Assembly (NCBI RefSeq): GCF_015840335.1
Contig: NZ_CP060395.1
Coordinates: 1,302,001-1,366,000, forward strand
Direction: 5' to 3'
From: Synechococcus sp. CBW1108
GTDB lineage: Bacteria > Cyanobacteriota > Cyanobacteriia > PCC-6307 > Cyanobiaceae
DNA length: 64,000 bases
Under the pieces are notes generated by a model, which did not search any database, was not told the origin of the DNA, and was given only the letters and a program-made list of their open reading frames with translations. The position numbers and the translations under genes are program-made. This document shows positions 46,921-62,366 of the stretch, piece after piece (positions within the stretch are counted from its first letter, which is position 1; every line of letters begins with the position of its first letter).

Positions 46921-48039
46921 GTGTCCCTGCTCCGTTCCCTGAAACGTCTGAGCCAGGGGCAATATGCTGGCTGTCCCACGATGCAGGACTGGCCGGGCCT
47001 GATTGAGGCCTATCGCCGTTGGTTGCCGGTCAGCGACAAGACGCCGGTGATCACCCTGCGCGAGGGAGCCACTCCCCTGATCCCCGCTCCCTTGATCGCA
47101 GAGCGCATCGGCAGAAAGGTGAAGGTATTCCTGAAATACGACGGTCTCAATCCCACCGGCTCCTTCAAGGACCGGGGCATGACGATGGCGATCTCCAAGG
47201 CCAAGGAGGAGGGCTCAGAAGCGGTGATCTGCGCCAGCACCGGCAACACCTCGGCCGCTGCCGCCGCCTATGCCCGCCGCGGCGGCATGCGGGCCTTTGT
47301 GCTGATCCCAGATGGCTACGTTGCCCAGGGAAAACTGGCCCAAGCTCTGCTCTATGGCGCCGAGGTAATCGCCATCCAGGGCAACTTTGATCGGGCGCTT
47401 GCAATTGTGCAGGACATGGCCAGTAAGTATCCAATCACCCTGGTGAATTCGGTCAATCCATACCGCCTCCAGGGCCAAAAGACAGCAGCCTTTGAAGTTA
47501 TAGAAGCCCTTGGGGAAGCGCCAGATTGGCTCTGCATCCCCGTTGGCAATGCTGGCAACATCAGTGCCTACTGGATGGGATTCAACGAATACAAGGCAGC
47601 TGGCCGCAGCAGGAAATTGCCGCGGATGATGGGATTTCAGGCCGCCGGCTCTGCCCCCCTGGTGCTGGGCCATTCGGTGGACCAACCAGACACGATCGCC
47701 ACAGCGATCCGGATTGGCAACCCAGTAAACAGGGACAAGGCTCTCAAGGTAAAAGACGAAAGTGGGGGGGATTTCATGGCCGTAACTGATGCCGAAATCA
47801 TTGACGCCTACAAGCTGCTCGGCTCTGGTGAAGGGGTGTTCTGTGAACCCGCCAGTGCCGCCTCGGTAGCTGGGTTGTTGAAGCGTCGAGAGGAAGTGCC
47901 CCCGGGCGCAACGGTGGTGTGCGTGCTGACCGGTAACGGCCTCAAGGACCCAACCACTGCCATCGAACACAACGATGCCCGCTTTCACACCGGTCTGGCG
48001 GCGGATACGGCCAAAGTTGCAGAGGTGATGGGCTTTTAA
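46921..48039 (+). CDS. thrC: Threonine synthase
   Basis: A 372-aa PLP enzyme converting O-phosphohomoserine to threonine. [20 protein letters not shown] holds the PLP lysine, [20 protein letters not shown] binds phosphate, and [16 protein letters not shown] is conserved. The GTG at 46921 and the ATG at 46981 (which starts the family-typical [16 protein letters not shown]) are both possible, and neither has a good ribosome binding site. It is the gene preceding dnaN in picocyanobacterial maps. Confidence 0.94.
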
Positions 48040-48438
48040 AAACGCTCCCTTGGCCCCAACCAATTATCAAAGTGGCTAATTCATACCTGGGGGAAAGGCA
48101 TGGAAAAGGCGGGGATGGTGATCCGATTTCGCCAACCTCCTGGTAAAGCATTTTTCCCCAATGGCGGGAAACTGGGCAAAAGACTTGGCCATCCCCAGCA
48201 CCGATTCAAAATGCCCCAGCCAAATGGGCCGGCAATGGCTTCTAGGAACTGGGGTCTGGTGGGTTTTCCACCGTTCCCCCAGCCCCTACTACGGATGTTT
48301 TTATTTCTTCTAAAAATCCTTTAATCCCTTAATCAGAAGGGCGGTTGGATACGGTTCACCGGCGTTGCGGAATCAGCCAGGCTGTGGAAGCGTGGGTCCT
48401 AACCAACGCTGGCCTCCAGGCAACCCAGTCCATACGCC
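48040..48438. other. thrC-dnaN intergenic region, candidate replication origin
   Basis: A 399-bp gap without a credible gene. It contains near-matches to the cyanobacterial DnaA box TTTTCCACA: TTTTCCCCA at 48152-48160 (8 of 9), TTTTCCACC at 48264-48272 (8 of 9) and, on the other strand, GCTTCCACA at 48391-48383 (7 of 9). An AT-rich block follows at 48297-48340. In related genomes the origin lies next to dnaN. It also holds the dnaN promoter. Confidence 0.45.
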
Positions 48439-49593
48439 ATGAAGCTGGTCTGTTCCCAATCCGAACTGAGCTCCAGTCTCCAGCTGGTGAGCCGGGCGGT
48501 GGCGAGTCGCCCGACCCACCCGGTGCTTGCCAACGTGCTGCTCACTGCCGATGCGGGCACTGGACGCCTGAGCCTCACTGGTTTTGACCTCAGCCTCGGC
48601 ATTCAGACCAGCTTCTCCGCCAGCGTGGAAACCAGCGGCGCCATCACCCTGCCGTCCAAGTTGTTTGGGGAAATTGTCTCGAGGCTCGCCAGTGACAATC
48701 CGATCACCCTCCACTGTGAGGAGGGGACTGAGCAGGTTGAGCTCACCAGTGTTTCCGGCAGCTACCAGATGCGAGGCATGCCGGCGGAGGATTTCCCTGA
48801 CCTTCCCCTGGTGCAGAGCGGCACCCCAATCCGACTGGAGGCTGAGGCGCTGGTGAAGGGCCTGCGGGCCACCCTGTTTGCCAGCAGCAGTGATGAGTCC
48901 AAGCAGATTCTCACCGGTGTGCACCTGCGGCTGGATCACCAGGGGCTCGAGTGTGCCGCCACCGACGGCCATCGCCTCGCCGTTCTCTGCCTGGCCCACG
49001 CCGGTGCCCCCGCTCAGGCCGAAGACGGTGAACCAGGTGAACCATTCGCGGTCACCGTGCCGGCTCGCTCCCTGCGCGAACTGGAGCGCCTGCTCTCCGG
49101 CCGCCAGTCGGACGAGCCCCTGAGCTTGTTTTATGACCGGGGCCAGGTGGTGTTTCTCTGGGCTGATCAGGTGCTCACCAGTCGCAGCCTGGATGGCACC
49201 TATCCCAACTACCGGCAACTGATCCCCGATGGGTTTAGCCGCACCATCAGCCTTGATCGCCGCGCCCTTGTGTCTGCCCTGGAGAGAGTGGCCGTACTCG
49301 CAGATCAGCACAACAACGTGGTGAAATTCAGCGCGGATCCGGCCACCGGCCAGCTGCTGATCCAGGCCGATGCCCAGGATGTGGGAAGTGGCTCTGAGGC
49401 CGTAGCGGCCGAGATCACAGGGGAAGGGGTCCAGATCGCCTTCAACGTGCGCTACCTGCTCGATGGTCTCAAGACGATGGCTGCCGACAAGGTGTTGCTG
49501 CAGTGCAACGCCCCCACCACACCGGCGATCCTTACGCCTGGCGACGGTGCCCAGTTCACCTACCTGGTGATGCCCATCCAGATCCGCAGCTGA
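48439..49593 (+). CDS. dnaN: DNA polymerase III sliding clamp (beta subunit)
   Basis: A 384-aa clamp that tethers polymerase III. It starts MKLVCSQSELSSSLQLVSRA and contains the three similar clamp domains, including VASRPTHPVLANVLLTADAG, SSDESKQILTGVHLRLD, and the C-terminal NAPTTPAILTPGDGAQFTYL with VMPIQIRS. The C-terminus matches the conserved MPxRL-type end. It is the usual first gene of picocyanobacterial genomes. Confidence 0.97.
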   Translation: MKLVCSQSELSSSLQLVSRAVASRPTHPVLANVLLTADAGTGRLSLTGFDLSLGIQTSFSASVETSGAITLPSKLFGEIVSRLASDNPITLHCEEGTEQVELTSVSGSYQMRGMPAEDFPDLPLVQSGTPIRLEAEALVKGLRATLFASSSDESKQILTGVHLRLDHQGLECAATDGHRLAVLCLAHAGAPAQAEDGEPGEPFAVTVPARSLRELERLLSGRQSDEPLSLFYDRGQVVFLWADQVLTSRSLDGTYPNYRQLIPDGFSRTISLDRRALVSALERVAVLADQHNNVVKFSADPATGQLLIQADAQDVGSGSEAVAAEITGEGVQIAFNVRYLLDGLKTMAADKVLLQCNAPTTPAILTPGDGAQFTYLVMPIQIRS

Positions 49594-60887: not shown

Positions 60888-62366
60888 ATGGCATACGACT
60901 GGTTCAATCGCACCGGCCCTGGCGAAAGTGAAGCTGGGGCCCCACCGGATCTAGCCGCTGACGCGCCAGATCCCAATGCAGAGGCGCTTGAGTGGGCCCG
61001 TCAGGCCTATGCCCGGCTCAAGGCCCAGCAGGAAGCCCAGCAGGTGGCCGAGCAGGTGGCGGAGCAAGGACTCGCGCCGCTTCTCCAGGCAGAGCCCGCG
61101 TTTTCGACAGGGTCCCAGATCGGGTCCCCTCCCACCCCCCCGCAGAATTTTGTACAATCTGTACGGAATTCTGCAGGGGACAGTGCCCCGTCCTCCGCTG
61201 CCTTGGCCCCCGCTCCCGAGCCGGCTGCAGCGGCTCCTTCCCTGTTGGAGCGGGCTGCGGCCCAGCGGGCTGAACGCCAGCAGGCGATCACCGCCAGTCC
61301 GCCCGCAGACACTCAGCCCGCAGACACAGAGACAGATACCGCCGAGCCCAGCCTGGGTGACTTCGACACAGTCTTCACCTGGTCTGCCGAGGTGTTGGCG
61401 GCCCAGGGCAAGCGCGCCGATCAGGTGTCACTTGAGGAGATCGACTGGCTCGGCCGCCTGCGCGGTGGCCTGGAGAAAACCCGCCAGGGCTTTGTCACCC
61501 AGCTGCTCGACAAGCTTGGCGATGACCCCCTCACCCCGGAGGTGCTGGACGATCTGGAAACCACCCTGCTGCGGGCTGATGTGGGCGTGAAGGCCACCGA
61601 CCAGGTGCTCGATGCCCTGCGCCAGCGCCTAAACCTGGAGGTGGTCGATCCCAGCGAGGGGCTGCGCTTTCTCAAGGAGCAGCTGCGCGCCATTCTCGAC
61701 AAACCGATCAAGGCCAGCCCGGCATCCTTGCTGGCTCCCCAGCGGCAGCAGCTCAATGTGTGGCTGCTGGTGGGTGTCAATGGCGTCGGCAAGACCACCA
61801 CCCTGGGCAAGCTGGCCAATCTGGCCGTGCGCAGTGGCTACAGCTGCCTGATTGCGGCCGCTGACACCTTCCGGGCCGCTGCGGTGCAGCAGGTGCAGGT
61901 GTGGGGCGAGCGCAGCAACGTGCCGGTGGTGGCTAACCCCAGCGCCAATGCCGATCCGGCGGCGGTGGTCTACGACGCCATCGGTGCGGCCCAGGCCAAG
62001 GGCACGGAGCTGGTGTTGGTCGATACGGCCGGCCGGCTGCAGACCAAGCACAACCTGATGGAGGAGCTGGCCAAGGTGCGCCGCATCATTGACAAGCTGG
62101 CTCCCGAGGCGGTTGTGGAGTCATTGTTGGTTCTCGATGCCAGCCAGGGTCAGAACGGGCTGCGTCAGGCGATGGCCTTTGCCAAGGCGGCTGGCCTTAC
62201 CGGCGTGGTGCTCACCAAGCTCGATGGCAGTGGCCGCGGCGGCGTCGCCCTGGCGGTGGCATCGGAGGCGGGGCTGCCGATCCGTTTTATCGGCGCCGGC
62301 GAGGGTATTCGCGATCTGCGCCCCTTCAACAGCTTTGAATTCGTCGAGGCCCTCCTGGCTCGGTGA
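60888..62366 (+). CDS. ftsY: Signal recognition particle receptor FtsY
   Basis: A 492-aa SRP GTPase receptor. The N-terminal A domain is long, glutamine/alanine/proline-rich and variable, then the NG domain: LLVGVNGVGKTTTLGKLANL (G1), AADTFRAAAVQQVQVWGERS, VLVDTAGRLQTKHNLMEEL (G3) and VLTKLDGSGRGGVALAVASE (G4 and closing loop). A self-complementary DNA element interrupts the variable linker near residues 85-96. Its stop overlaps the phosphatase gene start (GTGA). Confidence 0.96.
   Translation: MAYDWFNRTGPGESEAGAPPDLAADAPDPNAEALEWARQAYARLKAQQEAQQVAEQVAEQGLAPLLQAEPAFSTGSQIGSPPTPPQNFVQSVRNSAGDSAPSSAALAPAPEPAAAAPSLLERAAAQRAERQQAITASPPADTQPADTETDTAEPSLGDFDTVFTWSAEVLAAQGKRADQVSLEEIDWLGRLRGGLEKTRQGFVTQLLDKLGDDPLTPEVLDDLETTLLRADVGVKATDQVLDALRQRLNLEVVDPSEGLRFLKEQLRAILDKPIKASPASLLAPQRQQLNVWLLVGVNGVGKTTTLGKLANLAVRSGYSCLIAAADTFRAAAVQQVQVWGERSNVPVVANPSANADPAAVVYDAIGAAQAKGTELVLVDTAGRLQTKHNLMEELAKVRRIIDKLAPEAVVESLLVLDASQGQNGLRQAMAFAKAAGLTGVVLTKLDGSGRGGVALAVASEAGLPIRFIGAGEGIRDLRPFNSFEFVEALLAR
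61142..61174. repeat. 33-nt palindromic element inside ftsY
   Basis: GCAGAATT at 61142-61149 pairs with AATTCTGC at 61167-61174; inside, two GTAC blocks pair around AATCT, and TT pairs with GG as wobbles, giving a 14-bp stem with a 5-base loop in RNA. Outside it, CCCC can pair with GGGG across one bulged A. The stretch is AT-rich in a GC-rich gene and stays in frame, encoding about QNFVQSVRNSAG. Confidence 0.85.

Follow-up and report, generated by a model that had tools for sequence, protein, structure and literature searches.

A probable old in-frame copy of a REP/RPE-like palindromic repeat family in the ftsY gene of a picocyanobacterium

Among the small palindromic repeats described so far, the Rickettsia palindromic elements (RPEs) are dispersed repeats of about 150 bp, some of which lie in frame within genes for unrelated proteins, where they encode a constant peptide (PMC10969869, PMC3733652). 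In PMC3733652, REPs are palindromes of 20-40 bp located mainly downstream of genes, between co-directional or convergent ones, with some intragenic copies; the stems measure 5-13 bp in this survey, its cyanobacterial REPs come from Nostoc, Anabaena and Cyanothece, and the word Synechococcus never occurs in that paper. Intergenic and intragenic palindromic repeats are also treated in PMC3116915. GTAG-REPs need the tag and RAYTs. The palindrome analyzed here resembles the RPEs by its in-frame copies with a constant peptide in unrelated genes (ftsY, cobD, an lhr-like helicase gene and ylqF), but it is only 21-41 bp long, belongs to Cyanobacteria and is mostly intergenic, and it is likened to them by description. 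Like REPs in the broad sense, it is a short palindrome with numerous scattered copies, which are mostly found outside and downstream of genes; its stems reach 20 bp, beyond the range of that survey, and its copy number is low. It was found in a window of 64 kb, the whole stretch of DNA that was analyzed (positions 1302001-1366000 of contig C1), taken from a single-contig picocyanobacterial genome of 3.23 Mb (G000), and no description of the palindrome family was found in the open-access literature searched, subscription papers being outside that scope. The small dispersed repeats (SDRs) that Elhai et al. (2008) reported from Nostoc punctiforme are said to be very small cyanobacterial repeats of 21-27 nt, some with compensatory changes, and reportedly are confined to a filamentous subgroup; our palindrome, also a very small cyanobacterial repeat with compensatory changes, is set beside them by description. 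The sites of the parS, Noc and SlmA systems are palindromic and richer towards the origin. The palindrome resembles them in both respects and differs by its core and by its absence from several congeners; the window, which includes dnaN, holds no match to the universal parS consensus at up to 3 mismatches, and a parS site was rejected for this reason.

The hairpin in ftsY is 33 nt long and has two G-U pairs in its stem (Table 1). The preliminary description had counted 14 bp, which leaves a 5-nt loop in the same helix; the helix and its two G-U pairs are confirmed, the stem actually having 15 bp. The CCCC/GGGG extension that it proposed exists as well, set off from the helix by one mismatch, which gives a longer symmetrical element. 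When G-U pairs and loops of 3-8 nt are allowed, no longer uninterrupted stem is present in the window. The hairpin folded with its flanks (61120-61195) gives z = -5.1, none of 200 dinucleotide shuffles folding equally well, and its GC content of 39% against 66% for the window agrees with the AT-richness noted earlier. The ftsY frame is open and matches its family model with 329.6 bits (cut-off 260.7); the palindrome corresponds to about residues 85-96 of FtsY, in the variable N-terminal part, the conserved domain beginning near residue 218, in agreement with the in-frame position first claimed.

Table 1. Coordinates, in the 64-kb window, of the palindrome, its host gene and the origin landmarks.
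Feature	Position	Strand	Remark
Inferred oriC between thrC and dnaN	48040..48438		about 12.7 kb from the palindrome; GC-skew minimum nearby
dnaN, origin landmark	48439..49593	+	TIGR00663
ftsY, host gene of the palindrome copy	60888..62366	+	TIGR00064
Extended symmetrical element with CCCC/GGGG arms, one mismatch	61137..61179		43-nt gap at this position in G015
Palindromic repeat copy in ftsY, 15-bp stem, 3-nt loop	61142..61174	+	in frame, within PQNFVQSVRNSA
Family core TTYTGTACANNNTGTACRGAA, in ftsY as TTTTGTACAATCTGTACGGAA	61148..61168		core match

When up to 3 mismatches are allowed, the 31-nt ftsY element still matches nothing but itself in its genome, and the genome collection contains no exact copy of it. 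A near-exact repeat of 31-33 nt was rejected because only the element itself was matched, and the family is visible only with a shorter core, which was derived from the similar hairpins held by the ftsY linkers of relatives. This core has a single match in the window (100 shuffles: mean 0.02, maximum 1) and, with up to 3 mismatches, 21 places in the whole genome; the reversed-pattern control has 0. Some of these places are degenerate (G000:1390506, for example, is almost stemless). With a 27-nt pattern and up to 3 mismatches, matches were obtained in 10 of 30 related genomes, all from the same genus (control 0); as 16 of the 30 belong to the genus, 10/16 of its genomes are positive. At up to 1 mismatch, the core was detected in 39 of 251 family genomes and in 7 of 59 genera, the own genus and six others (control 0), and is absent from most of the family's genomes; 4 of 16 congeners have 0 copies, G002, G003 and G009 have 0-1, and G008 and G011 none. 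The multiple copies that the preliminary description had proposed to look for thus exist, both in the own genome and in those of most congeners, and six other genera have them too. The strain-specific presence it had envisaged does not hold, as the ftsY copy is old: 10 of the 16 genomes of the genus have it, and it also occurs in another genus.

The 118 distinct copies inside the fetched loci, fewer than all listed matches, were grouped by their flanking DNA into 52 site groups. Many sites, above all ftsY and cobD, are common to several species, so that the family is largely old and static. Several species (L212, L226, L259, L242, L181) likewise have in common a copy close to where an IF-2B/mtnA-like gene begins. 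The consensus in the genus copies is near CTCTCCTGAATTCTGTACAG-S-CTGTACAGAATTCAGGAGAG. A conserved 21-nt core lies within a palindrome that can reach about 41 bp; G010 and G001 have perfect ones of 37-41 bp.

The outer arms vary between copies yet remain complementary within each copy. Over the 118 copies, at each distance of 10-14 and 16 from the centre the Watson-Crick fraction was higher than in any of 200 shuffles of the partners. When every site group contributed a single copy, the values at 10, 11, 15 and 18 passed the 97.5th percentile, and those at 12, 14, 16, 17 and 19 were equal to it or just under it. This covariation can result from selection for fold-back or from correction of imperfect palindromes by template switching. 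The ftsY element of G011 carries such a paired change, GTA to GCA and TAC to TGC, in both halves; the preliminary description had reasoned that bases conserved without paired changes, with no other copies, would speak against a mobile element, and both paired changes and copies were found. At position 7 from the centre, pairing is below the shuffles (48/118; shuffle mean 61, p = 0.001), and this weak pairing gives the palindrome a polarity without visible link to the direction of transcription. Among 59 copies oriented by this polarity, no base exceeds 51% in the stretch outside the arms, 21-30 nt away from the centre; the palindrome thus differs from GTAG/CGTC REPs and REPINs by the lack of a conserved terminal tetranucleotide.

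Internal copies were confirmed by homology (family models) in four genes: ftsY, cobD, the lhr-like helicase gene and ylqF. The ftsY copy is found in 10 of 16 genus genomes and lacking in 6, when up to 3 mismatches are allowed and weak copies, those of G001 and G004 among them, are included. It is also present in G160, from another genus, and in 11 of 81 other loci, some from the same genomes, scanned at up to 5 mismatches, a threshold at which codon-shuffled linkers gave 50 matches in 1620, the 11 real ones having at most 3. The cobD copy occurs in 9/13 (0-4 mismatches), the lhr-like one in 2/10 (G010 and G014) and the ylqF one at 3 loci from two genera (G015, G160, G221). In all four genes the centre falls at codon position 1 and the peptide is roughly (D/N)SVQPVQN, or (D/N)SVQxVQN-like, which is polar and suited to a linker. 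The two remaining frames are open too, and their peptides would be Cys-rich or aromatic; selection for a tolerable linker would be the simplest reason for the constant frame. Taken alone, the constancy of frame is weak statistically: with four independent sites, the other three would agree with the first about once in 27 cases. Apparent copies near N-termini (mtnA, dienelactone hydrolase and others) lie in other frames and have uncertain true start codons, and they were left out of the intragenic count. Locus L342 was rejected as a case of another frame, being ylqF on the opposite strand in the usual frame.

The analysis of genomic context covered 86 copies, those of the own genome, of 8 congeners and of the G005 loci, with genes called by a simple script: 40 are between co-directional genes, 17 between convergent and 8 between divergent ones, 16 lie inside called genes, unproven ones included, and 5 at locus ends were set aside, leaving 81 classified. 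Thus, of the 65 intergenic copies classified, 57 have co-directional or convergent neighbours, as a raw proportion, and the distance to gene 3' ends is mostly below 100 nt. An intrinsic terminator was rejected, as a T tract after the hairpin is nearly absent (4 of 130 flanks with at least five T in 10). The DNA-uptake-like octamer CTGTACAG was not found in the window (0 against 0.26 expected). In G000, islands at 1.12-1.14, 1.46-1.48 and 1.54 Mb carry PIN/Phd-type, Fic and rve-type genes, and many copies lie within such toxin-antitoxin/IS islands, where they are embedded in longer repeats. In one of these islands (L174:1-20000, G000:C1:1464001-1484000), 2-kb blocks carrying PIN-domain genes and rve-type transposases are repeated, and a variant palindrome AAATCTGTACA..TGTACAGATTT occurs there at six places inside a longer repeat. 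In G005, two copies 314 nt apart (L249:1197 and L249:1511) adjoin a match to a Phd/YefM-like antitoxin.

The presence of the palindrome at a given site differs between relatives. In the nearest relative, G015, the alignment shows a 43-nt gap exactly over the ftsY palindrome, and in G007 a 36-nt gap lies over the cobD palindrome that G014 possesses; both gaps look like losses because most relatives keep these copies, and no target-site duplication is evident by eye in either alignment. The lhr genes of G010 and G014 contain 30-42 extra residues with the palindrome, an insertion longer than the palindrome itself and lacking in 8 others, which looks like a gain in the G010/G014 branch. No transposition event or mobilizing enzyme was found for the palindrome. 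The Y1/RAYT-type transposase family PF01797 is present in 5 of 16 genus genomes and absent from the copy-rich G007, G010 and G014, unlike what GTAG-REPs need; a RAYT origin was rejected on this distribution, and beside the transposases of 7 loci checked the best match to the core has 5 mismatches.

The family is best read as REP/RPE-like repeats, small and palindromic, with neither a GTAG tag nor a matching RAYT; the ftsY hairpin is an old in-frame copy. We consider it probable that the ftsY element is a copy of a small picocyanobacterial palindromic repeat family, of the general REP/RPE kind, which spread by means of the palindrome. The RPE-like element suggested earlier is upheld as regards dispersal, in-frame placement in other genes and variable presence at sites; its transposition is a step that we infer. 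The copies would have arisen by spread of the palindrome, probably in the form of a DNA hairpin mobilized by a trans-acting protein, or else through template switching during replication. Copies landing in a variable linker and in a tolerable frame would have survived selection, and the ftsY copy may be an old and tolerated one, with an effect on FtsY probably close to neutral. Translated palindromic repeats are known from Rickettsia and from some REP families, and the palindrome would be a cyanobacterial case at the smallest scale, marked by a constant frame, DNA-level conservation within the gene of an essential SRP receptor, and copies that lean towards the origin, unlike those of ordinary mobile repeats. 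It offers a tractable and harmless case for asking how a palindrome of less than 50 bp spreads without a recognizable transposase.

Palindromes do arise in linkers, but the shuffle test and the existence of a copy family, with zero reversed-pattern matches in the own genome, refute a chance hairpin, the probability of which we regard as negligible. A conserved SVQPVQ peptide motif, with the palindrome as a by-product of its codons, would explain why the frame is identical and the peptide alike in four unrelated proteins. It is nevertheless very improbable: the majority of copies lie outside genes, the peptide drifts (NFVQSVRN in the own genome, DSAQPVQI with the paired change in G011), and 25 of the 28 Val codons of the element in 14 ftsY genes are GTA, a codon used for 16 of 546 (2.9%) in the rest of these genes. 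The GTA retention and the paired change of G011 indicate that the DNA palindrome, not the peptide alone, is held. Selection of the hairpin as an mRNA structure, for 3'-end stabilization between genes or ribosome pausing in ftsY, appears unlikely. It agrees with the stable fold in ftsY and with the many copies 0-100 nt past stop codons, but the T tracts are lacking, Rfam has no match for the palindrome, and ftsY is without it in the nearest relative and in 6 of 16 congeners. Moreover, the wobble pair shows no transcribed-strand bias among the 40 co-directional copies (U-G 11, C-A 12). As the copies are mostly in non-coding and unrelated places, the earlier suggestion of an mRNA role in ribosome pausing or SRP targeting is left unsupported.

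The palindrome could also be the recognition site of a putative protein organizing the origin region, like parS, Noc and SlmA sites, a useful DNA site being kept in its in-gene copies. The neighbouring thrC (46921-48039, confirmed by family model) and dnaN and the GC-skew minimum near 48-50 kb place oriC probably between these two genes, a pair also present in G005 and G160. Within 250 kb of oriC lie 18 of 21 copies in G000 (3.3 expected; clusters p = 0.0003, copies within 20 kb being merged first), 8 of 18 in G005 (3.4 expected; clusters p = 0.009) and 8 of 13 in G160 (2.3 expected; all-copies p = 0.007, clusters p = 0.11). The origin-ward lean is thus clear in two complete genomes and weak in the third, and in G000 it partly reflects the three islands mentioned above. 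Such a bias is not expected of a neutral repeat and counts against the repeat-element reading; the GTA codons held in ftsY and the positions common to several species also fit a DNA site. Its absence from several congeners and most of the family argues against a core function, however, and the covariation extends past the 21-nt core, a feature that would be superfluous in a protein site. Together with the many G000 copies in toxin-antitoxin/IS islands and the non-significant cluster test in G160, this makes an origin-organizing site a doubtful alternative to the repeat family. If it were true, FtsY, CobD and YlqF would carry a peptide imposed by chromosome organization.

In a viral contig (L285:6610-7902), the gene of a phage replication protein O (TIGR01610) contains two similar in-frame palindromes, with the peptides TESVHPVQD and TDSVQGVQK. 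They could be iterons of an origin lying in the O gene, with an independent resemblance.
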